Assembly (NCBI GenBank): GCA_030065825.1
Contig: JASJCY010000007.1
Location: 1-64,000, forward strand
Length of the DNA stretch: 64,000 bases
Direction: 5' to 3'
DNA from: Nostocaceae cyanobacterium
Lineage (GTDB): Bacteria; Cyanobacteriota; Cyanobacteriia; Cyanobacteriales; Nostocaceae
Positions 3,182 through 25,695 of this stretch are shown piece by piece. Position numbers and translations under genes: made by a program. The notes below the pieces were generated by a model. The model had not been told where the DNA came from. It worked only from the letters and a program-made list of their open reading frames with translations, and searched no databases. Position 1 is the stretch's first letter; each line of letters opens with the position of its first letter.

Positions 3182-3269
3182 TCAAAAATTGGATTTGGTT
3201 GGGGATTGGGGAATAGCGATCGCTTGTGAAAATATAAAAATCAGCCCATTTAATTTATAAATTACACAA

Positions 3270-4532: not shown

Positions 4533-4653
4533 GGCAGTTATAGTGAAATCTTCGGAATCAGACCAGTAGCATTATTGTCTAACGTCAAGTACAAAAAGCA
4601 CAAAAAGCTTAATGTTAGATTAACGTCCTGTTCCCCCAAAGCCTGTTTTTCAC

Positions 4654-5907: not shown

Positions 5908-6050
5908 AAATTTTTTTATTGATATATTTGACGACATTTAATAACGTTTGACTATATTTGTGTTAAACTAAACTTTTATAATACTTTATAATTTTATGAG
6001 TGAGGTTATTTCATATTTAATTTATTCCATACTCCAGTTATCTTTAGCTT

Positions 6051-7631
6051 ATGAACCAACCTAATTACTCACCTCAAGTTAAGGGCAAACAACAAGGAAA
6101 TCGCCTTTTAGCCTTGTTACTTTCAGCACTTTTATTTTGCTGGGGTTTCCTGCCAGCAGAGGCTGTTGCTAAAACTCAAATTCCCACAGATCAAACTTCA
6201 ATTCAACCCTATTTAGATCGGGTAATCAAGGAGTTGACCCAGTTCCGTCTCGACAATGGCATGAAGTTCATTGTTTTAGAAAGACACCAAGCTCCTGTCG
6301 TGTCTTTTGTAACTTATGCTGACGTAGGTGGTGTAGATGAACCAGATGGAAAGACTGGTGTAGCCCATTTTTTGGAACATTTAGCATTTAAAGGAACCAC
6401 AAAAATTGGTACAAAAAATTACCGAAAAGAAAAACAGTTGTTAGACCGATTGCAAATGCTGGATGCCAGAATTAAAGCTGCAAAGGTGGTTGGTGACAAG
6501 GAAAAAGTTGCCAAGTTAACAGCTAAGTTTGAAAAATTGGAATCTCAAGCCGCTAAAATTGTTAACCAAAATGAACTAGGAAGAATCGTGGAACAAGCAG
6601 GAGGTGTGGGTCTAAATGCTACAACTTCCACAGAGGCAACTCGGTATTTTTACAGTTTTCCTGCCAATAAACTAGAATTGTGGATGTCTCTGGAGTCAGA
6701 GAGATTTCTCGATCCTGTAATTCTCCGGGAATTTTATAAAGAAAAAGATGTGATTTTAGAAGAAAGACGGATGCGGGTGGAGAATTCCCCCATCGGTATG
6801 ATGCTAGAGAAGTTTATTGATACTGCTTATAAAGTCCATCCCTACAGACGTCCAGTAATTGGCTACGATGGAGATATCCGCAATCTCTCACCCGATGACG
6901 TGCAGAAGTTCTTTGATACTCATTATGTACCCAGTAATATAACTATAGCCATTGTTGGTGATGTCAACCCCACCGAAGTTAAGAAACTGGCACAAACTTA
7001 TTTTGGACGCTTCCAATCCAAAGCTAAAGCCCAAACAACTATCCCCACGGAACCCCAACAGACACAGCAACGGGAAGTCACTTTAGAACTACAGTCCCAA
7101 CCTTGGTATTTAGAAGGTTATCACCGTCCAGCCATTACCCATCCCGATGAAGCAGTGTATGACATCATCAGTAGATTGCTCAGTGATGGACGTACCTCTA
7201 GGTTGTATAAATCTTTAGTGGAACAACAGCGCTTAGCACTCACTGCTCAAGGTTTTAGCGGTTTTCCTGGGGATAAGTACCCAAACTTAATGTTATTTTA
7301 TGCTCTTACAGCCCCCGGACATACCGTTGATGAAGTAGCAGCGGCTTTAGGCAAAGAAATTGAAAGGTTAAAAACCGAACCAGTATCACCCCAGGAATTG
7401 GATAGAGTTAAGACACAAGCACGGGCACAATTATTGCGATCGCTTGATTCTAATATGGGTATGGCACAGCAGTTATTGGAATATGAAGTGAAAACTGGCT
7501 CTTGGCAGAACTTGTTTAAGCAGTTAGATCGACTGGCTGCGGTAACCCCTGCGGATATTCAGCGAGTAGCGAAAAGTACATTTAACCCAGAAAATCGCAC
7601 CATTGGTAAGTTGTTATCCAAACAAGCATAA
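6051..7631 (+). CDS. M16 family zinc peptidase (active subunit type), exported
   Basis: The 526-residue protein belongs to the pitrilysin/processing-peptidase family M16. The inverted zinc motif HFLEH is at residues 106-110 (in GVAHFLEHLAFKGT), and ESERFLDPVI downstream supplies a candidate third ligand. An N-terminal hydrophobic stretch (LLALLLSALLFCWGFLPAEA) is a signal peptide, so the enzyme should act in the periplasm or at the envelope. A Lys/Ala-rich charged insert at about residues 125-175 follows the zinc motif. The next gene, 16 bp downstream, encodes a second M16 protein without the zinc motif. Such active/inactive pairs usually form heterodimers. The peptide substrate is unknown. 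Confidence 0.9.
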   Translation: MNQPNYSPQVKGKQQGNRLLALLLSALLFCWGFLPAEAVAKTQIPTDQTSIQPYLDRVIKELTQFRLDNGMKFIVLERHQAPVVSFVTYADVGGVDEPDGKTGVAHFLEHLAFKGTTKIGTKNYRKEKQLLDRLQMLDARIKAAKVVGDKEKVAKLTAKFEKLESQAAKIVNQNELGRIVEQAGGVGLNATTSTEATRYFYSFPANKLELWMSLESERFLDPVILREFYKEKDVILEERRMRVENSPIGMMLEKFIDTAYKVHPYRRPVIGYDGDIRNLSPDDVQKFFDTHYVPSNITIAIVGDVNPTEVKKLAQTYFGRFQSKAKAQTTIPTEPQQTQQREVTLELQSQPWYLEGYHRPAITHPDEAVYDIISRLLSDGRTSRLYKSLVEQQRLALTAQGFSGFPGDKYPNLMLFYALTAPGHTVDEVAAALGKEIERLKTEPVSPQELDRVKTQARAQLLRSLDSNMGMAQQLLEYEVKTGSWQNLFKQLDRLAAVTPADIQRVAKSTFNPENRTIGKLLSKQA

Positions 7632-7647
7632 GTAAAGGACGAGAAAT

Positions 7648-9156
7648 ATGCATAGGTATAAGAGAAAGGGTAAAAAGCAGATGAAGATTCATCATCTTAA
7701 AAGGTTTTCTTATGCGTTGGTAATTGCTTGTGCCTTTCTACTGTTTAGTTTTAACTTTTCTTGGGCAGCCACCGAAGCAAAGCACTACACAGAATTGAAA
7801 TTTGCACCCCTACCTGAGATACAGTTACCCAAATACGAACGCTATACCTTAGATAACGGTATGGTTGTATATTTGATGGAAGACCATGAATTGCCCTTGG
7901 TAAGTGGTGCAGCGGTAATTCGTACAGGCGATCGTTTAGAACCAGCAGCAGAAACTGGGTTAGCTGAGTTGGTAGGGACAGTAATGCGTACTGGAGGAAC
8001 CCGTGAACATACTCCTGATGAATTAAACCAGATGTTGGAGTCAAGGGCAGCAGCAGTGGAAACTGGTATTAGTACTAGCGCTGGTAGTGCTAGTTTTGAA
8101 GCCCTCAAGGAAGATACACAAACTGTGGTAGGATTGTTTGCACAAGTGCTACGAGAGCCAGTTTTTGCCCAAGAGAAGCTAGATTTGGCAAAAACCCAAC
8201 TACGTGGTAGTATAGCTCGTCGTAATGACGATCCAGATGATATTGCTGGTCGGGAATTTAAGAAATTAATTTACGGTCAAGATAGTCCCTATGCCCGGAC
8301 TATAGAGTATGCAACCCTAGATAATATTTCCCGTGCAGATTTGGTGAAGTTTTACCAGGAGTATTTTTACCCCAACAACATGATTTTGGGAATTGTGGGA
8401 GATTTTGAAACCCCAGCAATGAAATCCCTCATTCAAGCTAAATTTGGTGATTGGAAAGCTAATCCCAACCTGAGGAAATCCCAATTACCAGAAGTTTCCC
8501 AAGCTAAAACAGGTGGTGTCTTTGTTGTCGATCAACCCCAATTAACCCAAAGTAGCGTACTGATAGGACATTTGGGAGGAACATTCAAAAATCCCGATTA
8601 TGCAGCCTTAGACGTGTTAAATGGGGTGTTAAATGGCTTTGGAGGACGGTTATTTAATGAAGTGCGATCGCGTCAAGGTTTGGCTTACTCAGTATATGGT
8701 TACTGGAGTCCCCGTCATGACTACCCCGGAATGTTCATTTCTGGAGGACAAACCCGTTCCGATGCTACCGTACAATTTGTGAAGGCAATTCAAGGAGAAA
8801 TCAAGCGTCTGCAAACCCAAAGGGTGCCATCCTCAGAACTTGCTTTTGCTAAGGAATCTACCCTTAATTCCTTTGTGTTTAACTTTCAAGACCCCAAACA
8901 AACCTTGTCTCGGCTGATGCGATACGAATATTATGGTTATCCGGAAGATTTCCTATTTCGCTATCGTCGTCAAGTAGAAGCCACCACAGCCGCTGATGTG
9001 CAACGGGTAGCACAGAAATATCTCCAGTCAGATAAATTGGTAACTCTGGTAGTAGGGAATCAAAAAAGCATCAACCCACCCCTAAAACAGCTATCAGCAC
9101 AGGTAATCCCCATTGATGTCACAATTCCCGGTTCCCCATCACAGGCGAAGAATTAA
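7648..9156 (+). CDS. M16 family peptidase-like protein lacking the zinc motif (partner subunit)
   Basis: The 502-residue protein has the M16 fold: YTLDNGMVVYLMEDHELPLVS at the start of the N-terminal domain and FGGRLFNEVRSRQGLAYSVY in the C-terminal half. Where HxxEH should be it reads GLAELVGTVMRTGGT, so it cannot bind zinc in the standard way. A hydrophobic segment (FSYALVIACAFLLFSFNFSW) is a signal peptide. The start used is ATG 7648, preceded by AAGGACG; ATG 7681 is a possible alternative giving a shorter n-region. The gene follows the active M16 gene by 16 bp, so the two are almost surely one operon and probably one heterodimer. Confidence 0.88.
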   Translation: MHRYKRKGKKQMKIHHLKRFSYALVIACAFLLFSFNFSWAATEAKHYTELKFAPLPEIQLPKYERYTLDNGMVVYLMEDHELPLVSGAAVIRTGDRLEPAAETGLAELVGTVMRTGGTREHTPDELNQMLESRAAAVETGISTSAGSASFEALKEDTQTVVGLFAQVLREPVFAQEKLDLAKTQLRGSIARRNDDPDDIAGREFKKLIYGQDSPYARTIEYATLDNISRADLVKFYQEYFYPNNMILGIVGDFETPAMKSLIQAKFGDWKANPNLRKSQLPEVSQAKTGGVFVVDQPQLTQSSVLIGHLGGTFKNPDYAALDVLNGVLNGFGGRLFNEVRSRQGLAYSVYGYWSPRHDYPGMFISGGQTRSDATVQFVKAIQGEIKRLQTQRVPSSELAFAKESTLNSFVFNFQDPKQTLSRLMRYEYYGYPEDFLFRYRRQVEATTAADVQRVAQKYLQSDKLVTLVVGNQKSINPPLKQLSAQVIPIDVTIPGSPSQAKN

Positions 9157-11168: not shown

Positions 11169-14100
11169 ATGAAGCAGATTTTAGAATCTGAGGATGCAAG
11201 AGAAAGCGATATTAAATCCCTTGAATCTATTCTTGTGAATTTATGTCCAGGACAAGATAGCTTGGTTTCAGAATTTATCCAAGCCTTTGAAATTCGGGAA
11301 TTTCAGTTAGGAGAAGAACTTCTTGATAACAGTATACTTGCTTCACCAAAAAAATATGTTCACGATGAACAAAATGGGAGTGGTTGTTACATAATTTGCC
11401 AGGGTAGAGTGCGACTACTGAGTGTAGACAAAGACGCACAAAGGGAAGTTCCGACTTCATTATTAGAAGTTGGGGAAATTTGTGGTATAGATGAGCTTTT
11501 TTGCGAACAACCCCTGGGTTATCGAGCGATCGCAGCCAGTACAGTTGTTGTTGCTTTTTTACCCCTCTCCCAACTGCAACCATGGTTAGAAAAACTGAGT
11601 TCATTGCCAGAGCATCTACGTAAAAACACATATGCTCGGCAAACCCTGATCTTCTTCAAAACCTGCACAGATTTGCGTCAACGGGCAAGAGAACGCAAAC
11701 AAGCCCCAGAATCCTCTAAGAGTTCTTCTCGTCAGTCATTGCTTTCTAGTCATGCTCTTAAGGAACTGTTGCCTTATCTAGAAGAAATTAAGATTGCTGC
11801 TGGATCGCCATTGTCTGATGCAACTTCTGCTGATGTCGGTCACTTCTGGTTACGCAGTGGTGAGATTGAAAGTACAAAAGAGGAATCCCAGACACCACCA
11901 AGTATTGGTGAGAGTTGGGGACATCCAGAGGAAATACCAAGCAATTGGATTGCTAAGACAGATTTATGGGTTTATAAGCTATCTGTAGAGCATTGGGAAT
12001 CAGCCCAAGGAATTGTTCCGGTATTAGCAGATAGTTCTTCCCAGTCAGGGACACCCAGCAAAGCAATTAACCAAGGGAAACGACGACGACCTGTAACCCC
12101 GACAGTGGTGGTTAATCAGCCTAAGTCGAGAAAAGAGCAGCAACAGGAGAATCTTGACTCCAAATTAAAAACAGAGTCCAAACCAATTGCCTTTGCCAAA
12201 CCAAAAAAGAAAAGTTATCGACGTCCTTGGTTTGCCAAAAGCTATCCATTTATTCAGCAGCAAAGTACTTCTGATTGTGGTCCTACTTGCTTGACAATGA
12301 TTGGTCAGTACTGGGGGAAAAGACTCAGTATTAACCTGCTGCGAAACTTATGCGGAGTTGGTCGTGCTGGAGCATCCCTGAAAAGCCTAGCTGTAGCCGC
12401 TGAAAAGGTCGGTTTTCAAGCCAGACCAGTCAGGGCAAGTTTAAACCGGCTAGTGGATCAAAAACAACCTTGGATTGCCCATTGGGAAGGAAATCACTAT
12501 GTAGTCGTTTACCGGATTAAAGGCAATCGGGTGATCCTTTCCGACCCCGCAATCGGACGGCGAAAGATAAAATTAAGCGAGTTTAAACAAGGCTGGACGG
12601 GATATGCGCTGCTACTAACTCCTACACCGGTATTAAGGCAAGTAGCTTCTGCCAAACCTTCCCTGTGGCGATTTTGGGGCGCATTTTTACCTTACCGTTC
12701 CATGCTATGGCCAATTATTACTGCCTCTGTGCTGCTGCAATTGTTTGGTCTGATAACCCCTTTATTTACTCAGATTATTTTTGACCAAGTATTAGTCCAC
12801 AAAAGCTTAAGCACCTTAAACGTTTTTATTATCGGTTCACTGGTGTTTAGTATTTGGCGTATGGCTTTGGTAGGCATTCGTCAATACATGCTGGTGAATT
12901 TTTCTAACAGGGTAGACCTCACCCTCGTCAGTGGATTTGTCAGCCATGCCTTGAGTTTACCTCTACAGTTCTTTGGCAGTCGCCATGTAGGTGACATTAT
13001 CACCCGTATCCAAGAAAACCGTAAAGTCCAAGCATTTCTCACCCGTCAGGCAATTGGTGCTTGGTTAGATGTACTGACAGCAGTTGTTTACGTAATCTTG
13101 ATGGCGTATTACAACTGGAATTTAACCATATTGGTGCTATCGCTACTGCTACCGATTGTAATTATGACAGTGGTAGCAAGTCCACTGTTGCGCCAAGTTT
13201 CACGGGAAATCTTTAATGCCGCTGCTAAGCAAAACTCCTCCCTGGTAGAAATGCTGACCGGAGTAGCCACAGTCAAGGGAGTTGCAGCAGAACAAGAATT
13301 GCGCTGGCTGTGGGAAGATGACCTGACAAATATGGTAAATGCTCGATTTCGCGGTCAGAAACTGAGCATTGGCTTAAAATTTTTAAGTTCTTTAATTAAT
13401 AGTTTGGGTAGTACCGCATTGCTGTGGTACGGATCTAGCCTAGTAATTCAAGACCAACTGAGTATCGGTCAATTAGTGGCTTTTAATATGCTCATTGGTA
13501 ATGTCATCGGACCAGTTTTATCTTTGGTAGGTCTTTGGGACCAGCTACAAGAAGTCATGGTTTCCGTTGAACGTCTGGAGGATGTTTTTAGCGCTGAACC
13601 AGAAGAAACACCAGAAAAATCAATGCTGGTAATGCCTCCACTCAAGGGGGAAGTGCAGTTTGAAGATGTTACTTTCCGCTATAACGAGGACGATCAACGC
13701 AATATTCTGCAAAATATTTCCTTTACAGTCTACCCCGGTCAGACTATTGCCGTTGTTGGTCGTAGCGGTTCCGGTAAGAGTACTTTGGTGAATCTCCTCC
13801 AAGGTTTATATCATCCCACCAAGGGTCGGGTTTTGGTAGATGGACACGATATCTGCCATGTGTCTCCCCAGTCCTTGCGTCGTCAATTTGGGGTAGTTCC
13901 TCAAGAGTGTTATTTATTCTCTGGGACAATTTTAGATAATATCACCCTTTATCGAGGGGAATATAACCTAGAGGAAGTGATTGAAGTTGCCAAGCTTGCC
14001 GAAGCACACCCCTTTATCCAGAGTTTACCACTGGGTTATAGCACCAAAGTTGGGGAACGGGGTTCTAGTCTTTCTGGAGGACAACGACAAAGAATTGCCA

Positions 14101-14378
14101 TTGCTAGGGCATTACTTGCTAATCCCCGGATTTTAATTTTAGATGAAGCTACCAGTTCTCTAGATACGGAATCAGAACGAAGATTTCAGGAGAATTTACG
14201 CCGCTTCAGCCGCGATCGCACCACATTTATTATTGCCCATCGTCTCTCAACGGTACGACATGCTGACTCCATTCTTGTCCTTGACCGAGGCATTGTAGTT
14301 GAACAAGGTAATCACGATGAATTAATGGCAAAAGGAGGTCTTTACTATCATCTGGCACAGCAGCAAATCGATTTATAG
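11169..14378 (+). CDS. hetC: HetC-type ABC exporter with C39 peptidase and cNMP-like domain
   Basis: The 1069-residue protein is a peptidase-containing ABC transporter of the inner membrane. Domains in order: a cyclic-nucleotide-binding-like region (about 35-165, SGCYIICQGRVRLLSVD); a variable linker (about 165-350); a C39 double-glycine peptidase domain with Cys370 in STSDCGPTC, His443 in GNHYVVV and Asp459 in SDPAIG; a membrane domain (about 500-780); and an ATPase with Walker A GRSGSGKST at 864, LSGGQ at 968 and ILILD at 988. Catalytic residues of both enzymes are intact. This layout and size match HetC of Anabaena, needed early in heterocyst differentiation, and a hetP gene follows downstream. 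Its transported substrate is not established. Confidence 0.85.
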   Translation: MKQILESEDARESDIKSLESILVNLCPGQDSLVSEFIQAFEIREFQLGEELLDNSILASPKKYVHDEQNGSGCYIICQGRVRLLSVDKDAQREVPTSLLEVGEICGIDELFCEQPLGYRAIAASTVVVAFLPLSQLQPWLEKLSSLPEHLRKNTYARQTLIFFKTCTDLRQRARERKQAPESSKSSSRQSLLSSHALKELLPYLEEIKIAAGSPLSDATSADVGHFWLRSGEIESTKEESQTPPSIGESWGHPEEIPSNWIAKTDLWVYKLSVEHWESAQGIVPVLADSSSQSGTPSKAINQGKRRRPVTPTVVVNQPKSRKEQQQENLDSKLKTESKPIAFAKPKKKSYRRPWFAKSYPFIQQQSTSDCGPTCLTMIGQYWGKRLSINLLRNLCGVGRAGASLKSLAVAAEKVGFQARPVRASLNRLVDQKQPWIAHWEGNHYVVVYRIKGNRVILSDPAIGRRKIKLSEFKQGWTGYALLLTPTPVLRQVASAKPSLWRFWGAFLPYRSMLWPIITASVLLQLFGLITPLFTQIIFDQVLVHKSLSTLNVFIIGSLVFSIWRMALVGIRQYMLVNFSNRVDLTLVSGFVSHALSLPLQFFGSRHVGDIITRIQENRKVQAFLTRQAIGAWLDVLTAVVYVILMAYYNWNLTILVLSLLLPIVIMTVVASPLLRQVSREIFNAAAKQNSSLVEMLTGVATVKGVAAEQELRWLWEDDLTNMVNARFRGQKLSIGLKFLSSLINSLGSTALLWYGSSLVIQDQLSIGQLVAFNMLIGNVIGPVLSLVGLWDQLQEVMVSVERLEDVFSAEPEETPEKSMLVMPPLKGEVQFEDVTFRYNEDDQRNILQNISFTVYPGQTIAVVGRSGSGKSTLVNLLQGLYHPTKGRVLVDGHDICHVSPQSLRRQFGVVPQECYLFSGTILDNITLYRGEYNLEEVIEVAKLAEAHPFIQSLPLGYSTKVGERGSSLSGGQRQRIAIARALLANPRILILDEATSSLDTESERRFQENLRRFSRDRTTFIIAHRLSTVRHADSILVLDRGIVVEQGNHDELMAKGGLYYHLAQQQIDL

Positions 14379-15186: not shown

Positions 15187-15228
15187 ATGAAAGAATCGTC
15201 TAAATCTCCAGATCGCAAGGGGGCATAT

Positions 15229-16761
15229 ATGCCGGATATTACATCTGAAATGGAGTCGAGTCTAGATTCAATTCAAGAATTAGATTCTGAGGCATCTTCT
15301 TCAATTTTTGGAGGTACAGCAACACCAGTACAATTTGCACCGAATACCTCCACTGATGAGTCAGATGACTTAACGGCAAACACAGAGGATACAGATGCTA
15401 AAGAAAATAGCAACTGGTCAACATCATTACAAACCGTATTAGACCAGCCACCTTCATCTCTTCCCTATAAAATGCTGTTAGGGGGAATGCTGTTTTGTTC
15501 AGCTTTTGTAACTTGGGCAAGTGTTGGTCAAATTAACGAAGTCGGTAAAGCCTCAGGACAATTAGTTCCCCAAGGAGAGACTTATAAAGTTCATCCAGTT
15601 ACCCCAGGCAAAATTGCTCGCATTCTCGTCAAAGAAGGTGAAGCAGTTAAAGCAGGACAGGTAATCGCAGAACTAGATCAAGAAATAGCCCTAAATGACG
15701 TTGCACGCTTACAGGAAGAGCGAGCATCTTACCAGAAGCAATTGCTGCAAACAGAAGCTTTGATTGAGAAAACCCGTCTAGAAGCTCAAACCCGCGTCAA
15801 AATTGCCCAAGCAGAGGTCAGAGGACAAGAAGCGGTTATTGAGCAAGTTAAAGCCAAAATGGATAGCCAGAAAGCAGCGATCGCTCAAATTGAGGATAGA
15901 GTTGCTACCAGCCAAATGCTAATGAAAGAATTGCGTACAGATGCCGCAGCTCAACAGGAAAGACTAGAAAGACTAAAATCTCTAGTGACAGAAGGGGCAC
16001 TTTCTAGAGATCAATTATTTCAAGCACAGCGGAATTTAGGCGATCGTCAGCGTACAATTATCCAGCAAAGTGGTGACATCAAACAAGCTCTGACAGAATC
16101 CACTCGACTGCAATCTGATTTACAACAAGTAATGGCAGAATCGCAGCGAATGCAAGCTGAATTAGCCCGCAAACAAGCTGAAGTTAGCACAGTTAATTTA
16201 CAAGCACAACAGACAATTCAAAGGCTGGAAGTAGAAAAAATTGACTTGCAAGCCAAACTTCAGCAAACCGAAAAGTTATTGGCACAAGCAAAAACTCGCC
16301 TAAAACAATTAACTTTAACTGCCCCTGTTGATGGATTTGTATTATCCCTGAACCTCAGCAACAGTGGTGAAGTCGTGCAAACTGGACAAACCATTGCCGA
16401 AATTGCTCCCCAGGGGTCACCGTTAGTACTATCGGCAATTTTACCAGACCGGGAAGCAGGTTTTGTCGAGGTAGGAGATTCAGCACAAGTCAAATTAGAC
16501 GCTTATCCATTCCAGGATTATGGAATTATCTCAGGCAAAGTCACATCTATTTCCGCAGATGCTAAACCCAACGAACGACTGGGTGCAGTTTATCGCTTGG
16601 AAATAGTTCTTGACCGCAATCATGTCAGGGCAAATAATCAAGAAATCAAATTTAAAGCTGGTCAGGCAGCCAGTGCTGAAATTATAATCCGTCGTCGTCG
16701 GATTATAGATATACTGCTAGACCCCGTGAAGCAGTTAAAAGAAAGCGGTGTCAATTTATAA
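15229..16761 (+). CDS. HlyD family secretion adaptor with double-glycine-like N-terminus
   Basis: This is a periplasmic adaptor (membrane fusion protein) for a type I exporter, most likely the HetC transporter encoded upstream. From ATG 15229 it has about 510 residues; this start is preferred over ATG 15187 because AAGGGGG sits just before it. The layout is a cytoplasmic N-terminus, a membrane segment (KMLLGGMLFCSAFVTWASVG), a lipoyl half (GKIARILVKEGEAVKAGQVI), a long coiled coil (about residues 150-375), the second lipoyl half (LTLTAPVDGFVLSL) and a C-terminal barrel (DRNHVRANNQEIKFKAGQ). The N-terminus contains SIQELDSEASSSIFGG, which fits C39 leader rules. hetP begins 34 bp later, suggesting co-transcription. 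Confidence 0.88.
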   Translation: MPDITSEMESSLDSIQELDSEASSSIFGGTATPVQFAPNTSTDESDDLTANTEDTDAKENSNWSTSLQTVLDQPPSSLPYKMLLGGMLFCSAFVTWASVGQINEVGKASGQLVPQGETYKVHPVTPGKIARILVKEGEAVKAGQVIAELDQEIALNDVARLQEERASYQKQLLQTEALIEKTRLEAQTRVKIAQAEVRGQEAVIEQVKAKMDSQKAAIAQIEDRVATSQMLMKELRTDAAAQQERLERLKSLVTEGALSRDQLFQAQRNLGDRQRTIIQQSGDIKQALTESTRLQSDLQQVMAESQRMQAELARKQAEVSTVNLQAQQTIQRLEVEKIDLQAKLQQTEKLLAQAKTRLKQLTLTAPVDGFVLSLNLSNSGEVVQTGQTIAEIAPQGSPLVLSAILPDREAGFVEVGDSAQVKLDAYPFQDYGIISGKVTSISADAKPNERLGAVYRLEIVLDRNHVRANNQEIKFKAGQAASAEIIIRRRRIIDILLDPVKQLKESGVNL

Positions 16762-16795
16762 AAGTTGAATTAAAAAATTTATTTAGGGATTAGTC

Positions 16796-17188
16796 ATGAA
16801 CTACCATGTTTCTTCTGCTCAGAAAAATTTGACTAGAGGTTTAAATCCTGAACAATTTAATCAAATTGTGGAAGCAATTGCTGGGGGTAAATATTCCTGG
16901 GCTTGTTTATTGATTTTGCGTTTCGCTGGTTACAATCCACTCCACTTCATTCCCTACCGTACATACAGTCGTTTAATGAAAGAAAATAACCCATATAAGA
17001 AAGAATCCACACATACACAAAATAAAATCAAAGCTGGGATAAAATCCTCTGCAAATAGGTCTAATTCTACAACCAAAATTAATGACTTGGATTATGTAGA
17101 AAATACTGACGAAAAAGAAGCCAGTCTCCAAGGAGGAAATTTATACTATTCATCCTATGAATACATTAACGATCTGAACTGTAATTAG
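16796..17188 (+). CDS. hetP: HetP, heterocyst commitment protein
   Basis: The 130-residue protein carries the conserved HetP block: [19 protein letters not shown], then [19 protein letters not shown] and YSRLMKENN (about residues 19-63). The remaining half is Ser/Asn/Lys-rich and unordered in appearance. HetP acts after HetR in committing a cell to become a heterocyst; its biochemical activity is not known. ATG 16796 follows the hlyD stop by 34 bp, so the two genes are probably one transcript. In Anabaena, as I recall, hetP follows hetC directly, so the intercalated hlyD is a local difference worth noting. A second hetP-like gene lies at 19599-19952 on the other strand. Confidence 0.88.
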
Positions 17189-17242
17189 CCAGACTGATTA
17201 GTTTAAATTCCCTAGGAAAGCCTCTCTCCTTCTAGGAAAGAG

Positions 17243-17393
17243 GTCTTAAATTATAGGATTACTATTTGATTTTTGTTCGCGTAGCCTGCGCTTGCGCTTA
17301 AAAATCTCACTACACTTTCTGTTCCCTGTTAAGAGTTCCCCGTTCCCTACCATCACGAGTAATTTTACAAATCAAACCGGATTCCTATAGTTA
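17243..17393. repeat. MITE-like element after hetP
   Basis: The left end reads TTATAGGATTACTATTTGAT and the right end is its inverted, slightly diverged copy (AATCAAACCGGATTCCTATAG). Another copy of the end sequence, TATAGGAATCCGGTTTGAT, lies at about 18698-18716, so such ends occur on both sides of the foldase gene. Confidence 0.45.
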
Positions 17394-17863
17394 GAGTATC
17401 TTTATAAAATAAATATAAAACTGTGGCGAGAGTCCAGAAACCGGGTTTCTTTTGACACCTATAAAAACCCGGTTTCTTTTATTTATAAACAACCTCTTAA
17501 ATAAAACCTCGATTCTCTTGAGGACTTCTAGCCCCAGGCAAAATTCACACTCTCTCTCAATGACAGAGGAAAAATAGAGAAGGTTAAGTTTCTGCCAATT
17601 TGTCCACAATAATTGAACAAAAACAGGTATATTTTTTGTAAATCATTATGTAATAGCAAGTTTCGTTTTTTATCATGTTGAGTTTTTAGTATATCATCAA
17701 TTTTTAAAACAAATAAATTCTATGAACTAGGTCTATTTTGAAACCCATAGTTTTGATTGACCTGGTTTTGTTTCCAAATCCTATATTTACTTTGAAAAGC
17801 TCTAGTTTTCGACTGGGATAAAGTTTAAATTGTATTTTGAGATAAACAGGTTTTAATAAAAAA
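17394..17863. other. Intergenic region with AAACCGGGTTT palindromes
   Basis: Two inverted copies of the AGAAACCGGGTTTCT palindrome lie at 17436-17450 and 17463-17480 and can form one larger hairpin. Beyond them the sequence is AT-rich with no gene seen. The minus-strand frame at 17391-17609 passes through the palindromes and is rejected. Confidence 0.5.
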
Positions 17864-18595
17864 ATGATTGAATTTAAGGGTGAAATTATACTACCGGAAG
17901 AAATTATTACATTTCTTCAAAGGAACATGAGAATCAAAGAAATATGTAATAAAGTTTTACACCAAAAAATTATAGAACAAGCTGTTAAAGAAAGAGATAT
18001 CACAATCACACCAGAGGAAATTCAAGAAGAAGCAAATAAAGTGCGTTATGCCAATCGTTTAGTCAAAGCCAGTGATACTTTTGCATGGCTTTCAGAACAG
18101 TTGATTAGCCCCGATGACTGGGAAGCAGGCATTCGTGATGCCCTCTTGAGTAAAAAATTATCCGAGGCTTTATTTGCCAAAGAAGTAGACAAATACTTTG
18201 CTCAAAATCAGCTTGATTATGACCAGGTTATACTATATAAAATAGTTGTTTCCTCTCCAGAATTAGCTCAAGAAATATTTTACCAAATCGAAGAAGGTGA
18301 ACTCAGTTTTTATGAAGCTGCTCACCTTTATGATATTGATAAAAAACGCCGAAACTACTGTGGTTATGAGGGTAAATTTTACCGTTGGGCTTTAAAAGCA
18401 GATGTAGCAGCAATTGTATTTAGTTCCAGACCTGGAGATGTATTAGGTCCACTAACAACAGAACAAATTAGTTATTTGTTGATGGTAGAAGAGTTTATCC
18501 CTGCCGAATTAACACCCCAAAGATATCAAGAAATTTTAAATAAAATGTTTCAAGATTGGCTATCAGCAGAGCTTAACTATATTCTACATGCATAA
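17864..18595 (+). CDS. Peptidylprolyl isomerase (SurA/PpiC-like foldase)
   Basis: The 243-residue protein has an N-terminal helical SurA/trigger-factor-like region (about 1-115, with KVLHQKIIEQAVKERDITIT and TPEEIQEEANKVRYANRL) followed by a degenerate parvulin domain (about 120-225, ELSFYEAAHLYDIDKKRR and FSSRPGDVLGPLTTEQISYL). There is no signal peptide, so it should stay in the cytoplasm. In cyanobacteria such leaderless foldases commonly sit next to C39-ABC/HlyD exporters, which fits its place after hetC, hlyD and hetP. A role in keeping the exported substrate competent or folded is an inference. It lies 675 bp after hetP, so it is likely transcribed separately. Confidence 0.8.
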   Translation: MIEFKGEIILPEEIITFLQRNMRIKEICNKVLHQKIIEQAVKERDITITPEEIQEEANKVRYANRLVKASDTFAWLSEQLISPDDWEAGIRDALLSKKLSEALFAKEVDKYFAQNQLDYDQVILYKIVVSSPELAQEIFYQIEEGELSFYEAAHLYDIDKKRRNYCGYEGKFYRWALKADVAAIVFSSRPGDVLGPLTTEQISYLLMVEEFIPAELTPQRYQEILNKMFQDWLSAELNYILHA

Positions 18596-19048
18596 ATACA
18601 AATAAACCACATCTATTTTCTCCGAAGAAACACAGGAAAGAGAAAACAGGGAATAGGGAATCACAATTGCCTGGAAGGAGATAATCAAAAGCAGTTTATA
18701 GGAATCCGGTTTGATTTTTAAATAAAATTAGGTATCTGTAGGGTGCGTTATGACCTGGTTGACTGACAAAAGTCTTGGAAGTGTTGAAATTTCGTAGCCC
18801 CTCCACCCAACGCAATCGGTTGCGGTTGTTGGGTTACTCTGCTCAAAGCCGCTGTTGCGTCTACATGCTACCGCTCCGGGGAAGCAAGCTACAATCCAAC
18901 CTACATCAAAAAGATTTGTCAGTCAATCAAACGCACCAAAACCCTTACATTATGCTGCCGTACTTTCCCCACATAACACAACGGCAGTTTTGCGGGATGA
19001 GTATCCACACCGCAAACTACCTCCCCTACCTGTTCCTCAAAAATCAAA

Positions 19049-19234
19049 TATAGCGGTTTTCTGTTGAGTGTAGACGCACAGGGTCACCTCCCTACGGGTG
19101 GTACACAAATTTTACCTCACCCCGGCTAAAGCCACCCCTCTCCGCAAGTTCGGAGAGGGGAAGAGGGTGAGGGTAGGAGGGGGGAAGGGGGTGAGGTTCA
19201 GGCTGTATTGCACAAAGCGTGAAAACCGCTATAG
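19049..19234. repeat. MITE-like palindromic element, second copy
   Basis: Begins TATAGCGGTTTTCTGTTGAG and ends GAAAACCGCTATAG, an inverted pair. The interior has mirrored CCTCACC/GGTGAGG and CCCTCTCCGC/CGGAGAGGGG blocks. It is the same kind of element as 178-362. Confidence 0.6.
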
Positions 19235-19425
19235 TAATCCTAATATAAACAAAAAACAGAGAAATATTCTCTAGTACTCGACCAAGTAAACTATGCGGGG
19301 TTAATAAGGAAAGAACAAAGTTTTTTCTTCCCCCTCTTCCCCCTCTCTGCCTTTACCCCGCAAAGTTGGTGTGGTGGACTACTAGTCATAGGCGTGGAAA
19401 TTAAATATGCGTCAGCTACAACCCT

Positions 19426-19457
19426 TGTTCCAGACGTAAAATTTTACGTCTGGAACA
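19426..19457. terminator. Perfect 32-bp palindrome, probable bidirectional terminator
   Basis: GTTCCAGACGTAAAA and TTTTACGTCTGGAAC are exact inverted copies with no loop bases left over, followed by TTCTTTTT. It lies between the convergent foldase gene (ends 18595) and the hetP-like gene (ends 19599), so it may end either transcript. Confidence 0.6.
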
Positions 19458-19598
19458 TTCTTTTTCACCAGATGTCTTCTTTACTTGAAGTCACAATAAT
19501 TGAGAGAAAATGTTGATGTTTCGGAGGCTTTTTTCCCGATTTTATAGATTGAGAATCGCGAATTTATGTTGATAATAAAGTATGGTAATTTACCTCCG

Positions 19599-19952
19599 CT
19601 AATTTTGGTTTTTTTGTTGAGCAATTACTTCCAGATAAGCCAATTTTTTCATTTTCCCTAAGCGGTTTTGGGAATGATTGGTATCAGACTTTTTGACAGA
19701 AGATTCCTTGGCAATTTCGACGTTTGTCTGTGGTTGTTGATTTACAACATTTTCCTGGGAATTATCTTTTAGTAATCGGTTATAAGTGCGATAGGGTATG
19801 TAATCTAAGGGATTGTAGCCAGCAAACCTTAACATTAACACACAAGCCCAGGAATACTTGCCTGAAAGAATAGCCTCAACTACTTGGTTGAATTGTTCAG
19901 TATCAACTTTATTGTCAAAAGTGTTAGCCACACCGAGATTATCGTGATTCAT
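19599..19952 (-). CDS. HetP-like protein
   Basis: The 117-residue protein has the HetP block in nearly consensus form ([45 protein letters not shown]; about residues 19-64). The tail differs entirely from the HetP at 16796 and ends [18 protein letters not shown]. Heterocystous cyanobacteria usually carry several HetP paralogues, some with delaying effects on commitment. Which class this is cannot be read from the sequence. It lies downstream of a broken hlyD on the same strand, repeating the hlyD-hetP order of the main locus in inverted orientation. Confidence 0.85.
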
Positions 19953-20206
19953 AGTTTTTGTGCAGTAGACTTTATAGAGTTGTTGAAATCTTGTTGTTCA
20001 AAATCTGTTCGATCAATTCCTATCCATGTGTTTGCAGTTGCTGATTCGCTTTTAGAAAGGGGCAATCGGTTTATAAGTAAAAAGTAAGTATTAACTATTA
20101 ACTAATAAGTAACAAGTAATAACTTTAACCTCTGTCTGTTGGTAATAAAAAAGCTTTATACCATTTTTACGCTTATATTTTTTACTTATTACTTTTGACT
20201 TCTTAC

Positions 20207-20767
20207 TTATTCCTTAAAAGTCCAAATGACTTTGGTAATGGCTGTAAAACCAGATTTAAATTTGAGGCTGTGGTTGTTATCTCTAACATGATTGCGATCC
20301 GCTGCTACGACAACTCTATATGACCGACTATTATTGACATCGAATTGAGAAACTATAGCACTAGATATGACCCTTACTGAAATCCTTGCTCGATTCCTAT
20401 CAAGTTTGATTTTTAGTGACATTCCTTAAAAACTACTCCTTGGAGGTAATTGACTTCCACAATCACCTCCAGTACATGTCCAAATCACAACCATCAGAAA
20501 AAAAGCTACGCTACTTAACAAAACTCCACAGGAAAGAGATGAGGACTGCTGCTCTAATAACCTCTGCAAAGATGAGAAGCGATTACTGATATTGGTAGTT
20601 ACTGGTTCCAGACTTTTAAGAGCTGTCCTTATCAGGTAGCTCCTATACAATATTGCTGTATGTGTAGTCTGTGCAGTTATAGTTGCACCTAGATTGTCAT
20701 AGAGATGCAACACGCTGTCTGATTGGCTTGAGGTTTCCACTGCATTTAAGCTGATGATTCTTTCCAT
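20207..20767 (-). pseudogene. HlyD-like gene with the coiled-coil middle deleted (remnant)
   Basis: Two open pieces lie in one frame, separated by a single TAA. The first (20426-20767) has the HlyD N-terminal region: FSSLQRLLEQQSSSLSCGVL followed by a membrane segment like that of the intact hlyD. The second (20207-20422) matches only the C-terminal barrel: IKLDRNRARIS, then DRNHVRDNNHSLKFKSG, against DRNHVRANNQEIKFKAG in the intact protein. Both lipoyl halves and the whole coiled coil are missing. The N-terminus lacks the GG motif. It is probably a dead duplicate, although the second piece has an AAGGA just before its own ATG. Confidence 0.75.
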
Positions 20768-22071
20768 GAGCTAACCTTTATTCTTTACTTATGTCATGTC
20801 ATGTGACTGGCATGAAAAAGTCTCCCCTTGGCTCTTGGTAGATGCAGTTCCTTGGAAAATTTCACTTTCCTCCTAATTTAATTAGTTTAAGCACAAAGTT
20901 GAGTGTATTTCAAACAACTAATTTTTTAGGAAGAAAACCGTATAAATACTTACACAGGTAATTAACAAAGAAAAAATCTTTGTCTTTGATAGTTAATCAC
21001 AAAATCATCCCTATATTCGTATTTATACTATTTTTTTATGTTAATGTCATCTATTAATTTAGCAAATTTTTGCTGAATTGTACTGAATCTGTTCTGATAT
21101 TTACTTATTTTTTGCAAAACTCTATCTGTTATCCCATATGCATGAGCTTGTGGGGTATCACCCCTCATTTAACATGTTCTTAATAATTGTATCCTCCCCA
21201 TATTTTTAGGAATATTCTCTATTATAAATGTTATTTGCACTCCTGCGGCTATATTGATATTGATACCTTTTAGAGAGTGACAAAATTTGACATATTTTTA
21301 TAATTTTTTTGACTCTGATTCAAGAATAGTTTATGAATATTGTTCAGTGAAACCCTTATGAAATAAAGATTTTAAACCTGTATAGCTAAAAAATGGAGAA
21401 CGGAGAACAGGAAACGGGGAAAAGGCAAGATATAAGAGATATTGTCATACTTGGTTGTAAAAATTTATGGTGAGTGGCTATCTTAACAACCGTACTTTTG
21501 TCTCAAAATAATGACATTGGAAGAATTATTTATTTTCGAGTCTAAATTTTTGTAGTTCAACCATTCATAGGGTCTCTATAAACATCAAAAAACAATGCTT
21601 TTCAAATTAGACACTGTTTTACTTATAAGCTGTTTTTGTAATTTTGTAAGTATCTTGTAAATTTTATATGAAGTTATCAAAATTTTATATATTTAAGTAG
21701 CAAGCAATACAATATATATGCTATTAATTCAAACTCTTGAAACTGATATCAATTGGATACAATACATATCCATGTCATTTTCCTAGAGATGTGGGTATTT
21801 ATAAATAAAAGATAAAGCCCAAAGAAACCCGGTTTCTTTGGGCATACATAGTCAAATTCTCGGTTCTCCACCCATACAATACCTTCACCAAAATACCCTC
21901 ACCTTAGAAAGGTGGGGGTATAGGTAGCTTGCTTCCTCATTGCCTTAGCTTTCCCCAGGATAGCGCTACAAAGGCTGCATACCCAGCCTACAAGGATTTT
22001 AGCCCACCAACCTGGGCTTCATTCCTATACTCATATCTTGCACCATTCAAGGGCAACCATTGAGAAAGCGA

Positions 22072-22120
22072 GGCAGCGCGTTGCTTTGGTTTCCATGCGT
22101 TATAGCGACTGCCGGGGTTT
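22072..22120 (+). repeat. 49-bp inverted repeat, left copy
   Basis: Starts GGCAGCGCGTTGCTTTGG and ends GACTGCCGGGGTTT. Its exact reverse complement lies at 22987-23035, so the pair bounds a 964-bp segment. A diverged copy of part of it is seen at about 61710-61750. Confidence 0.75.
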
Positions 22121-22830
22121 ATCAACGAAAAATTAGGGTTTTGACAGGTAAATATTGCCAATAAACCCGGTTTCTGACCCTGGTGCAAGATGTGTGTATA
22201 GCGGTTTTCACTCTTTATCAAATACATCTTTGTGGAATAGGCATTCCTGCCCGTCCTAATTTCGCAATCTACCAATCTTAGAGATTGTTTATACATAAAA
22301 AGAAACCGGGTTTGGGATAGGTGAAGAACTGAGAATTTGAGTATGTATGCCTTCATAAACCTGGTTTCTAGACCCTCACGGGAGTTTTATATTTATTTTA
22401 TAAACACCCTCTTAGTGCAAAATTGTGACTCCAAGTCAATGTCTGCAATCAACTACTCCAACTTGAAATTTTCCCCCTAAAGCAAACAGCGGTGCATATC
22501 AATAATCTTCTTAGCCCAGCAAATATCATAAAACACTTTTTCAGAATAAAAAAAGTTAATAATGAACACAAGAACTAAAAAATTAGTTATCATTGTTACC
22601 AAAAAAAAAGATAATTGAGTTGATATTTCTGGTGACTAACACCTATACGAACATTCATTTCTGGTGCGATTGCTGAATTCCGTTAAAACTTTGAAAAACT
22701 TAATATATTCAAAAACTCTGTCTTGTGAAACCGGGTTTGGGATAGGTGGAGAACCCGAGGAAATGGCTCAACCCATTCCCCACCAACCAATCATGTGTCG
22801 CATTATTTTTTCAAATTGGTATCATAAACA

Positions 22831-22914
22831 TAACTTGCACCATTTTCAAGAAAAGCCAGAGGTTCCTATGTTCTGGTTACCAAGGTGACGCTGGTAACTA
22901 GGGGAGGGGAGGCT
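22831..22914 (+). repeat. 84-bp dispersed repeat, copy 1
   Basis: Runs from TAACTTGCACCATTTTCAAG to about GAGGGGAGGCT, with the internal palindrome GGTTACCA-GGTGACGCTGGTAAC. Its reverse complement, with a few changes, is at 41530-41614. Confidence 0.65.
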
Positions 22915-22986
22915 ACTCTTTATAAAACCAAAAAAACCGGGTTTCTAAACGCAAAATTTAGGCAAAGAGGATTAGTCATTCTCAAG

Positions 22987-23035
22987 AAACCCCGGCAGTC
23001 GCTATAACGCATGGAAACCAAAGCAACGCGCTGCC
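22987..23035 (-). repeat. 49-bp inverted repeat, right copy
   Basis: Exact reverse complement of 22072-22120. No transposase lies between the two copies, so they are more likely two insertions of one repeat family than the ends of one element. Confidence 0.75.
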
Positions 23036-23199
23036 GAGCTTTTTAACCCAAGTGCAAGATGTGTGTATACCAATTTCAAAAAAGACTACTACACATCAAT
23101 TATCTTATCTGAATCTGTTGCCTGTTGCCTGTTGCCTGTTGCCTGTTGCCCCCTTTAACCGAAGTGTAGCGTTCTTAAATGAAATTGGTATTAGTTAAA

Positions 23200-25695
23200 T
23201 TAAATATAAAACCCTTTGCCTAAATTCAATGTCAAGTAAACAGCCCAAATTGCCATTGCTCTGAGGTAAATACTAGCACGGAAAGTTCCAGTAGCAGTTA
23301 TGGCTTCAGGAGTGCGGAATTGTAGACCATTCTCGTAGACTTGTTTGACTACAGCTTCTGTTAACCTTAATGCTTCATCCTGCATCCCCATCTGCACCAG
23401 AAAAGCCGCCAAACCGAAATTAATCCCAGTCCAAACTTCTAGAGGGTGAGTAGCCTTAGGGTTTTCTGGAGAACCATCAGGACGAACCCCATTGGCAGCA
23501 CCGAATTCACCATTGTGAAACTTGAGGAAGCAAGCCTCATAAACAGTCTTCAGGGCAGAAACAGCGCGATCGCATGGTACAATATCAGGTAAACTCAACA
23601 AACGGGCATAAAACTGTCCGCACAGTTGATCCGCCATCACCACATCCGAACCACTCTCACTATCCAGTCGATAATATTGCCCATTCCATAGTTTCTCCTC
23701 ATACACTGTACGAGACTGTTCCAACCAACCTTCATAGATAGATTTTTGCTCCTCTAACTCCTCTACGTCCTCCTCTACGTCCTCTCTCTTGAAAAGTTGC
23801 TCTTGCGGGAAACCCACAAGACCGCACTTTTCGTTGCGGTCTGTGCGGTTATTTATTAAAATCTCAGCAATTGCGATCGCAGCCTCCAAAGCAGCCAACC
23901 ACAAACCTCCACAATAAGCACTTACACCCCGCAATCGCCAATCATCAAAAGTTTGATCCGGTGCGCCAGAATTTTCGGGAATTCCATCTCCATCTACATC
24001 AAAGCCTTTCAGGTAATTGAGAGTTTGTCCAATTGCATTCCAGCAATCTTCCAGAAACTCCACATCATCAGCACCACTCAGCAGAAAATCCCGGTATACC
24101 TGCAACACAAAATCAGCACCCAAATCTTTCCAGAGATTGCAATCTTGGTAACTGGTATAATTTGTTTTCTCCCACACATGTTCATTCGGTGCCCCCAAAT
24201 CATGGGGTGTAGCACCAGCCACCTTACGAACCGCCAGGGGACTTTCTGCACCAATGGTATAATAATATCCAATTACCCGGGTGCGATCGTCACTTTGAGG
24301 AATTCCCCTGGCAAAAGCACGAATTACCGTCTTTTCCAGTTCCGGGAACAGCATCAACAATCCAAAGGAACCGTAAAGCCGCACATCTAGACTTTCGTAC
24401 CAACGATAATCTAGACATTCCAACACAGCAAATTGACCGATGGGGTCATCTTCAGTCGCCGCACTCCACAGTGTACCACCACTGGTAAGGTCATACAACT
24501 CGTTAAATAACGCCATTTTTAACCAATCAGGCAAATCTTGGCGATTGAGAATCGGTTCTTGCCAAGCTTGAATTTGTTCTCTCCACTGTTGATATTGTTT
24601 CAAAGCCGTGGTGGCTATAGCCCAAGCATTTTCACCGTTTCTGCCAAAAAAATCAGTATATCGACGGAAATAGTTGATTCCGGCTGCAAATTCAGTTACA
24701 GGAAAATCCCAAGCGAGAGTAAAGGGGATTTCTAAAGTTTCCCCTGGTTGGAGAGTAAAACGCACAGCCAAAGCTACCCCTACCTGTTCCTCCTCTGTGG
24801 CTAGGGTTTCATCTGTATGATTGGGCAAAGAACCATCTGCGGCAAAACTCTGCCACACATCCTCACCCGTACCTACGGGATTCCACCTGGCATGGTGAAA
24901 TATTTCTACTTGGGGATGTTTGCGAGTGGCGATACACCAAGTTCCTTCTCCTTCCTGGGGTACGTCTCCCATACCCACCCGACCTAAAATGCAGGCAACA
25001 TATTTAGTATTTTCACTTAAACAATTAAAATTATTATTACTTTCATTTAACCGTGGTTGGTATTCATAAACCGGACTACCATCATCCCGCAGCTTGACTT
25101 CCGGGGACTTGAGAGCATTCGTAAACCAGCCCACCATATTTTGCCAGGTAAGCATAATACTAACAGTTATGAGTGCATCAGTGGGATTGTGTGCCGTCCA
25201 GAGAAATACAGCTATAGGATAACTAGTTTCTTGGTAATTATTGGCACAAATAGGGGAAAACTGCTCGCAGGTTAACTGTGCTTGATATACCCCCTCATAT
25301 ACAAACCAACTGCGAGGATATAAAGCGTGATAAGTTCCTGTAGTGACTGGATTAATGGCGTTATTATTAGAACTAGGATACCATTGCCAAGCTGTTAAAC
25401 TTCCGTCTTCTGGTGCTTGAGTACACAAAGCATATGCTTGGGAAGAGGTATTATTTGATTCAAAGACGCTAAATTGACAAGCGGGGATATTTTTGAAGAC
25501 ATGCTCACCACCATCAATGTGCCAGAGGTTAAAATCTCCCCGGGAAGAACGACCAATACAACCCGCACCGAAGCCACCTAAAGGCATTCCCTGCCAGGGA
25601 CCATCATCGATATTACTAGCATAGCGGACTGTGTAGGGATTGTCCCAGCCTAAACCGATGGGACGACTCCAAGTGCAGGAGGGGATTTCTTTCAT
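23200..25695 (-). CDS. GH116 family glycoside hydrolase (glucosylceramidase/beta-glucosidase type)
   Basis: The 831-residue protein matches GH116 (relatives of human GBA2), retaining beta-glycosidases. The N-terminal domain begins MPLGGFGAGCIGRSSRGDFN and contains LWHIDGGEH; the C-terminal half is the (alpha/alpha)6 catalytic domain. Candidate catalytic residues are the Glu in RWYESLDVRLYGS (nucleophile) and the Asp in GAPDQTFDDW (acid/base). No signal peptide is seen, so it is cytosolic. Around nt 23750-23855 the protein carries an unusual Glu/Asp-rich stretch (FKREDVEEDVEELEEQ) that looks like a repeat inserted in frame. The substrate is not defined by sequence. It has no operon partner. 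Confidence 0.88.
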   Translation of the reverse strand: MKEIPSCTWSRPIGLGWDNPYTVRYASNIDDGPWQGMPLGGFGAGCIGRSSRGDFNLWHIDGGEHVFKNIPACQFSVFESNNTSSQAYALCTQAPEDGSLTAWQWYPSSNNNAINPVTTGTYHALYPRSWFVYEGVYQAQLTCEQFSPICANNYQETSYPIAVFLWTAHNPTDALITVSIMLTWQNMVGWFTNALKSPEVKLRDDGSPVYEYQPRLNESNNNFNCLSENTKYVACILGRVGMGDVPQEGEGTWCIATRKHPQVEIFHHARWNPVGTGEDVWQSFAADGSLPNHTDETLATEEEQVGVALAVRFTLQPGETLEIPFTLAWDFPVTEFAAGINYFRRYTDFFGRNGENAWAIATTALKQYQQWREQIQAWQEPILNRQDLPDWLKMALFNELYDLTSGGTLWSAATEDDPIGQFAVLECLDYRWYESLDVRLYGSFGLLMLFPELEKTVIRAFARGIPQSDDRTRVIGYYYTIGAESPLAVRKVAGATPHDLGAPNEHVWEKTNYTSYQDCNLWKDLGADFVLQVYRDFLLSGADDVEFLEDCWNAIGQTLNYLKGFDVDGDGIPENSGAPDQTFDDWRLRGVSAYCGGLWLAALEAAIAIAEILINNRTDRNEKCGLVGFPQEQLFKREDVEEDVEELEEQKSIYEGWLEQSRTVYEEKLWNGQYYRLDSESGSDVVMADQLCGQFYARLLSLPDIVPCDRAVSALKTVYEACFLKFHNGEFGAANGVRPDGSPENPKATHPLEVWTGINFGLAAFLVQMGMQDEALRLTEAVVKQVYENGLQFRTPEAITATGTFRASIYLRAMAIWAVYLTLNLGKGFYI
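23752..23856. repeat. Repeat insertion inside the GH116 gene
   Basis: The plus strand shows CCTCTACGTCCT twice in tandem, followed by TTGCGGGAAACCCACAAG and an ACCGCAC block. These are of the kind usually found between genes in filamentous cyanobacteria. Here they are read in frame as a charged linker of about 30 residues. Confidence 0.5.

Follow-up and report, generated by a model that had tools for sequence, protein, structure and literature searches.

Neighbouring sister hetC-hlyD-hetP cassettes in a Nostocaceae genome, and HetP as a candidate substrate of the HetC exporter

How did two hetP-like genes on opposite strands, each preceded by hlyD-like sequence, come to lie next to each other in one cyanobacterial genome, and what does this arrangement say about the exporter HetC? 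The stretch that raises the question comprises 64,000 nucleotides from a Nostocaceae cyanobacterium (assembly GCA_030065825.1, contig JASJCY010000007.1, positions 1 to 64,000) and is referred to here as the window. The Nostocaceae are heterocyst formers. A preliminary description of the window read the two units as an inverted duplication that arose locally, after which the minus-strand copy fell into decay apart from its hetP, which selection maintained. Our analysis points elsewhere. The best explanation overall, to which we assign a probability of about 0.68, is that two ancient sister cassettes of the order hetC-hlyD-hetP-PPI (peptidyl-prolyl isomerase) came to lie side by side, and that HetP is cut by the neighbouring C39 exporter HetC.

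Identity and relationship of the two units

The minus-strand unit is the canonical heterocyst locus, GH116-hetC-HlyD relic-hetP, here lacking hetC. Its HetP has matches in 142 of the 145 family genomes, covering every one of the 56 sampled genera (family meaning Nostocaceae by named matches); the best matches are mostly 54-63% identical, mostly over residues 1-115. Across 20 neighbourhoods gene order is mostly GH116-hetC-ORF-hetP-PPI (ORF, open reading frame), counting the genes present at each; only a few have the full set. Primers for alr2817 and alr2818 of PCC 7120, taken from the accessible part of a published study (PMC4133259), map to the canonical locus in G216, L152, L164 and L180. Primers alr2818-16 and alr2818-17 match the G216 locus without mismatch, and alr2818-17 matches 5 of 217 family genomes at two or fewer mismatches. 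Because the matches are family-wide and the published primers fall on the canonical locus, the minus copy is the true HetP orthologue; it alone lies in the alr2818 clade and at that locus, and the plus-strand HetP belongs to the other clade. The minus unit is thus orthologous to alr2817-alr2818 by its HetP clade, its HetR box and its GH116 neighbour, which is shared with the primer-matching G216. It differs in that the window has no hetC, shows a visible HlyD relic and encodes a HetP that stops before the double-glycine (GG) tail; in 7120-like loci hetC and GG are intact and no relic was detected.

The plus-strand unit is a cassette that recurs elsewhere. The order hetC-hlyD-hetP-PPI is found in G029, G107, G012 and G126, and G020 has hetC-hlyD with a truncated hetP and no PPI. 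The window HlyD is 43-64% identical to the cassette HlyDs of these five genomes, and four of the five cassettes have counterparts of the window PPI (59-72%). None of the five has a canonical hetP within its 18-kb stretch. In G029, a single contig, the canonical HetC at 1.77 Mb and the plus-type HetC at 2.45 Mb are 675 kb apart. Genome G051 has no plus cassette: downstream of its canonical hetP come two M16 peptidase genes, and beyond them lie homologues of window positions 3921-4571 and 3261-3707. Since canonical hetP and the M16 pair are neighbours in G051, it is between these two that the plus cassette of the window lies, in inverted orientation. In L210 and L051 the canonical PPI occupies the position where the window has the plus cassette, which may have been inserted here, or the neighbourhood may have been rearranged. 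The identity of the units, one the canonical locus and the other a sister cassette, is close to certain.

Trees of all three proteins separate the two units. In the HetC tree (40 rows, quick method) the 27 canonical rows form one clade (support 99), and the window HetC lies outside this alr2817 clade, grouping with the plus type (94) and, within it, with G029 and G107 (100); the 27 canonical and 6 plus-type rows together split from 7 other exporters at 100. The HlyD tree covers the membrane end and barrel of 31 of 52 HlyD rows. It places the window relic among the canonical relics (93/87, with L213 outside), nearest to L061 (87/83), and the intact window HlyD with the plus type, a group that is weak (58/77); relics and plus type together split from the remaining HlyDs at 86/93. 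The HetP tree (83 rows) sets 21 plus-type rows, including window 16796, against 60 canonical rows and window 19599 at 99/96. The short, long-branch row C280 was excluded from the count of changes on this tree, and L101 is a cassette row in this tree but, having only an hlyD stub, is solo in the stub and GG counts. By these trees both units go back to one shared duplication, and an ancient one.

The preliminary description was therefore correct that the units are paralogous with a common duplication node, as the HetC and HlyD trees indicate, but not that the duplication took place in this genome. Gene order and orientation in the window fit a local inverted hlyD-hetP duplication, as does the paralogy itself. 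However, all three trees place the copies in old, separate clades, with the relic among other canonical relics, the outcome that the preliminary description had itself named as contradicting it; the minus unit is syntenic with the canonical loci of relatives, and the plus cassette also occurs in five other genomes. The relic N-terminus (MERII..NAVETSSQ) matches the one at other canonical loci, unlike that of the plus-strand HlyD. Trees and synteny together rule out a recent inverted duplication, and we regard local duplication followed by decay as hardly tenable.

The component identifications were borne out in part. The intact plus-strand HlyD and both HetP-family proteins exceed their model cut-offs (Table 1), and the minus-strand segment is HlyD-derived: tblastn with the window HlyD gave E 2.6e-6 (35% identity) over the C-terminal barrel and E 0.007 over the membrane end. 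The segment lacks the lipoyl and coiled-coil parts and keeps the membrane segment and the barrel, as described; rather than a pair of unrelated ORFs, it is a single frame with one in-frame TAA. Nor has the tail of the minus HetP simply diverged, since it aligns with its orthologues to about residue 115 and then stops short. Finally, it had been proposed that hetP paralogues arise when a hetP copy outlives its hlyD. The window was read the wrong way round in this respect, but the idea holds for some genes. Of 14 solo plus-type hetP genes, 3 (in G002, G045 and G133) have a HlyD C-terminal stub just upstream, of 19, 43 and 36 residues (E 9e-4, 2e-8 and 3e-7); the stubs directly adjoining hetP lie at L100:8229-8285, L101:6074-6202 and L107:9858-9965. 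Because these stubs adjoin solo hetP, some hetP paralogues are survivors of whole export cassettes.

The double-glycine motif of HetP and the presence of hetC

HetP carries the motif KIxDLxYLEx10GG, with GG at about residue 113-120. In the window, the plus HetP has it as KINDLDYVE-x10-GG (17075-17101; GG at 17132-17137), with 16 residues beyond. The minus HetP, whose hetC is lost, stops 9 residues past KMKKLAYLE, its C-terminal end (19602-19655) falling short of the GG of its orthologues. The exporter beside the plus HetP has the features of a peptidase-containing ATP-binding cassette (ABC) transporter (PCAT): a C39 domain (140.9 bits) in which the Cys, His and Asp motifs are all present, together with ABC_membrane, ABC_tran and cNMP domains (Pfam). 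The plus HetP thus has the sequence context of a candidate double-glycine PCAT substrate, GG beside a C39 exporter, and the minus HetP does not.

Our survey took in 61 canonical loci, that of the window among them, with one or two loci from each of 56 genera. An ORF of at least 950 amino acids was counted as intact hetC, and 58 loci had enough upstream sequence for this call. GG is present in 24 of 27 loci with intact hetC versus 6 of 31 without (Fisher p 8e-8); GA or GS would add 2 to the former and 8 to the latter. In a set of named loci the figures are 27/30 and 18/45 (p 1e-5); the two sets overlap in species and are not independent. These counts are alignment-based and omit loci at contig edges (3 survey, 5 named); a simple pattern count missed variant motifs and gave 20/27 versus 4/31 and 20/30 versus 8/45. 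Among plus-type HetPs, GG occurs in 5 of 6 with an exporter and in none of 14 without (one has GA), counts that exclude L109, described below, and a 68-residue HetP-like piece without GG in L268. For other families of the order we took 20 loci chosen among the better matches; with an exporter, 16 of 18 have GG and the other 2 GS, whereas neither of the two without an exporter has GG. Of the 7 survey loci that have intact hetC but no detected relic, 6 keep GG, so the motif follows hetC, not hlyD. C39 catalytic motifs are present in 25 of the 27 canonical HetC proteins.

The erosion is largely confined to the tail. In the survey, conservation of the HetP N-terminal block is 0.937 with intact hetC and 0.926 without (p 0.40), whereas that of the tail after GG is 0.525 versus 0.156; in the named set the tail values are 0.522 and 0.307. 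We also followed hetC and the motif on a tree of the GH116 neighbour. GH116 sequence was sufficient in 118 of 146 loci; the tree was built from 106 distinct rows with known hetC state and requires at least 13 changes of that state. Motif changes number 2 on hetC-intact rows (branch length 7.65) versus 12 on hetC-lost rows (9.44; p 0.018), or 1 versus 14 with GA and GS taken as intact (p 0.0018). The picture is one in which GG would have been lost some time after hetC, many times over.

Several observations weigh against a tie between GG and HetC. Nine independent pairs on supported branches of the GH116 tree ran the same way in 2.8 cases on average, the opposite way in 0.0 and without difference in 6.2; the sign test is not significant (median p 0.25), and in a few pairings one pair ran in the opposite direction. 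With GA and GS counted as sites, the named-set contrast shrinks to 27/30 versus 27/45 (p 0.008), and the HetP block of that set differs slightly too (0.944 versus 0.916, p 0.0008). GG persists where intact hetC is lacking, in 6 of 31 loci of the survey and 18 of 45 in the named set, although three of these named rows (L137, L151 and L177) still have hetC ORFs of 726-893 amino acids. Conversely, the clade of L139, L148 and L181, as well as L220, keeps hetC while RGR replaces GG, and L117 retains the exporter beside a truncated hetP. The plus-type comparison takes no account of relatedness; 13 of the 14 solo tree rows belong to a single set that includes 4 cassettes and the window. Genomes that lack hetC still have other C39 exporters (hetC'). 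Lastly, GG stands some 113-120 residues into HetP, and in the usual double-glycine leader it is not that far in.

These points bear directly on the alternative that the association reflects shared ancestry and general tail loss, with no cleavage by HetC. The non-significant pairs test, the single state that large Nostoc groups have in common and the many hetC-less loci that keep GG are all as it would predict. Against it, the association recurs in three sets (canonical, plus type and other families), at least 12 motif changes fall on hetC-less rows versus 2 on hetC-bearing ones, pairs almost never run the opposite way, and loss is largely confined to the HetP tail. We therefore consider shared ancestry unlikely as the full explanation. 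The association is good evidence of a functional tie, short of proof of cleavage.

A second alternative assigns the cut to a neighbouring M16 peptidase, as suggested by Wang et al. (2011) in the accessible text of PMC3140520. An M16 pair does adjoin the locus in the window, G051 and G048, and a single M16 gene in G019; moreover, G051 has M16 and no hetC, yet keeps GG. However, GG is absent from G048, which has the M16 pair but lacks hetC, and an M16 match was found in only 3 of 60 survey loci, in stretches reaching 4-9 kb downstream. Cleavage by M16 instead of HetC is accordingly very improbable. Cleavage of HetP by HetC, the step that we favour, is itself somewhat probable on these comparisons.

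Two further arrangements were seen. At L109 (G022:C59) a plus-type HetP with GG lies downstream of a different exporter pair (hetC', hlyD'), so C39 exporters other than HetC may also be tied to HetP proteins with GG. The window genome (G000) has a third HetP-like gene, at C280 21169-21360, about 9 kb from a HlyD and a C39 exporter (30415-31812 and 32910-35153).

Table 1. Features of the two units and their surroundings in the window (TIGR01843, for HlyD, and NF037966, HetP_family, are profile models; tree support as in the text)
Feature	Position	Strand	Evidence or remark
M16 peptidase pair, directly after canonical hetP in G051	6048..9156	+	Pfam Peptidase_M16, M16_C; 6048 is the start of the open frame of the first gene, not its established start codon
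hetC-like peptidase-containing ABC exporter of the plus cassette, paralogue of Anabaena HetC	11169..14378	+	cNMP + C39 + ABC
Intact HlyD adaptor of the plus cassette	15187..16761	+	TIGR01843 237.2 bits, cut-off 208.65 (NCBIfam)
Plus-type hetP	16796..17188	+	NF037966 HetP_family 114 bits, cut-off 45; plus clade 99/96
SurA/PPIC-like peptidyl-prolyl isomerase, fourth gene of the plus cassette	17864..18595	+	Rotamase 23.4 bits, cut-off 21.7
Orthologue of Anabaena HetP (alr2818), 117 amino acids	19599..19952	-	NF037966 117.2 bits, cut-off 45
hlyD relic of the canonical locus: N-terminus, membrane segment, C-terminal barrel	20207..20767	-	In-frame TAA at 20426-20428
Conserved DNA element over the 5' end of the relic	20714..20780	-	nhmmer E 3.3e-16, window-free model of 43 other loci
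Place of canonical hetC in relatives	20781..23199	-	No hetC trace
HetR-box-like palindrome GAGGGGTGATACCCCAC	21150..21166	-	1.2 kb upstream of minus hetP, upstream of the relic
GH116 glucosidase, upstream neighbour of canonical hetC-hetP in relatives	23200..25695	-	Pfam + synteny; DUF608 (GH116 catalytic) 438 bits, Glyco_hydr_116N 377 bits

Loss of hetC, decay of hlyD and the HetR box

Intact hetC was found in 27 of the 58 loci and is absent or broken in 31, the window among them. Loci without intact hetC (for example L060, L056, L066, L069 and L225) retain hetP and mostly the HetR box too. In the corresponding place in the window, tblastn with the 27 canonical HetC proteins found no hetC remnant, the best match (E 0.025) being at chance level. 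Across the 31 hetC-less genomes, the best match to canonical HetC was no better than E 5.5e-245 (G017 had none at 1e-200), which is the range of the other exporter type; the exceptions are G000 and G043, in which the best match is the plus-type gene. A diverged hetC elsewhere in a genome could escape this search, since the canonical HetC of G129 itself reaches only 1.9e-232. The available text of a study of Nodularia spumigena CCY9414 reports that hetC was not found there while HetP (69%) was kept (PMC3610870). That genome resembles the window in both respects, but it is one species, whereas in the present survey intact hetC is missing from 31 of 58 loci, drawn from 56 sampled genera. A gene needed for functional heterocysts in PCC 7120 is thus missing from, or broken at, about half of the sampled loci.

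A HlyD-like stretch was detected in 37 of the 61 canonical loci, with the C-terminal barrel in 13, and none of the 61 has a full-length HlyD. The window relic matches no Pfam or NCBIfam HlyD model, and neither of its parts reaches the TIGR01843 cut-off. The longest HlyD-like ORF at a canonical locus, 438 amino acids in G047 (L239:4494-5807, minus), scores 126.5 bits with TIGR01843, below the cut-off of 208.65. This ORF has HlyD_3 over its cut-off and a weak lipoyl match, and its product may still work. In the other families, 18 of the 20 loci have HetC and HlyD next to hetP, 15 of them in the order hetC-hlyD-hetP; at 17 of these 18 loci a single ORF of 483 amino acids or longer encodes HlyD. 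Because HlyD is intact in other families and never full length here, the adaptor decayed at the canonical Nostocaceae locus.

The strength of protein constraint differs among relics. For relics of about 200 amino acids (7 loci), the ratio of nonsynonymous to synonymous substitution rates (dN/dS) is 0.82 versus 0.14 for hetP of the same loci, which suggests that they evolve nearly without protein constraint. For longer relics (6 loci, in other genera) it is 0.41 versus 0.16, and these may still work. Over the first 45 bases of the relic, conservation is flat across codon positions (0.81/0.80/0.78), in loci picked by matching a peptide, a choice biased towards positions 1 and 2 but not 3; the HetP block of the same 62 loci gives 0.94/0.99/0.60, with 58 close pairs removed. 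Parts of the bases preceding the relic are conserved likewise. A model of this 5' element, built from 43 loci that exclude the window and include many survey loci, finds it in 48 of 61 survey loci (E below 1e-3), broken-frame loci included, and in 50 of 80 named loci. RNAalifold predicted 0 pairs on 26 sequences, and the element has no Rfam match. The simplest guess is that it is a promoter or leader of hetP.

Could the segment at 20207-20767 then be a working short protein or a regulatory leader and not a mere relic? The 5' end that is kept as DNA, flat over codon positions, and the long relics of other genera at a dN/dS of about 0.41 speak for this. The in-frame stop in the window, the lack of constraint in the versions of about 200 amino acids, the failure to detect the segment in the 7120 group and the absence of an RNA fold or Rfam match speak against it. 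We consider either role rather unlikely.

A HetR-box-like palindrome accompanies most canonical loci. As reference we used the 17-bp HetR site of 7120 hetP given in the accessible text of PMC4192349; the window palindrome has 4 mismatches to it and retains the GGGG-N5-CCCC core. Among the 61 canonical loci, 51 have such a palindrome upstream. In a control of 49 loci (12 of the 61 were dropped from this and from the dN/dS analysis because the block pattern did not place them), the box was upstream in 41 and downstream in none, and it appeared 0 times in 20 rounds of dinucleotide shuffles. In all 31 loci having both, the box is upstream of the relic. No HetR box was found in the 20 loci of other families or in the 6 plus cassettes. 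From this distribution we infer that HetR control would have arrived with the heterocyst lineage, at first spanning hlyD and hetP together.

HetP as a candidate substrate of HetC

The mechanism that we favour would run as follows. HetP would be made with a C-terminal tail behind a double-glycine site, and the neighbouring HetC, through its C39 peptidase, would cut it at GG and export the tail. Where HlyD is intact, as in other families and the plus cassette, the tail would leave through it; at the canonical Nostocaceae loci, where HlyD has decayed, the tail would go into the periplasm. Once hetC is lost, the GG tail would be dispensable and erode while the N-terminal regulatory block stays. 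Cleavage, export and the destination of the tail are all steps that we infer from gene content and sequence comparison. A further extension is more tentative, although quite possible: HetP would be the physiological substrate of HetC, and the commitment switch would derive from a peptide-secretion operon by HetR takeover and HlyD decay, with the peptide released into the periplasm that the filament shares. The remainder of HetP would stay as an intracellular regulator, and hetC-less lineages, including that of the window, would run on uncut HetP alone.

Parts of this scheme have precedents. Wang et al. (2011, PMC3140520) reported KIxDLxYLEx10GG in HetP-like proteins near bacteriocin-type clusters, and the parts available of that paper and of a Subsection V survey (PMC4558948) describe clusters of C39 exporter, HlyD, SurA and HetP-like precursors with this motif, which the plus cassette fits well. 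The available text of the former does not name HetC (0 occurrences) and proposes an M16 peptidase; new here are the link between GG and the neighbouring HetC and the erosion of the motif once hetC is lost. A 2024 study (PMC10986499), in the part accessible, describes HetC as a PCAT whose C39 peptidase is needed for heterocysts, states that its substrate is open and raises HetP-derived peptides as a possibility; it also found the purified N-terminal domain of HetC to be active in vitro. In PMC4133259, a deletion of the hetC peptidase domain is reported to be rescued by extra hetP. The accessible text of PMC10986499 reports no double-glycine-leader protein and no membrane fusion protein gene near hetC. 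Here, in contrast, HetP carries a double-glycine motif and 37 of the 61 canonical loci hold a HlyD-like stretch. PCC 7120 would have no adaptor gene near hetC because hlyD once stood there and decayed. In the literature searched, outside which most subscription work lies (including the 2016 HetP paper), we found neither a tie of the HetP GG to HetC by presence and absence nor a report of a HlyD relic at hetC-hetP.

For the biology of the family, some hetP paralogues are what is left of export cassettes that were once complete. The tie between GG and hetC names HetP, and a short place within it, as a candidate substrate of HetC, and the identity of that substrate bears on why the completion of heterocysts needs an exporter.

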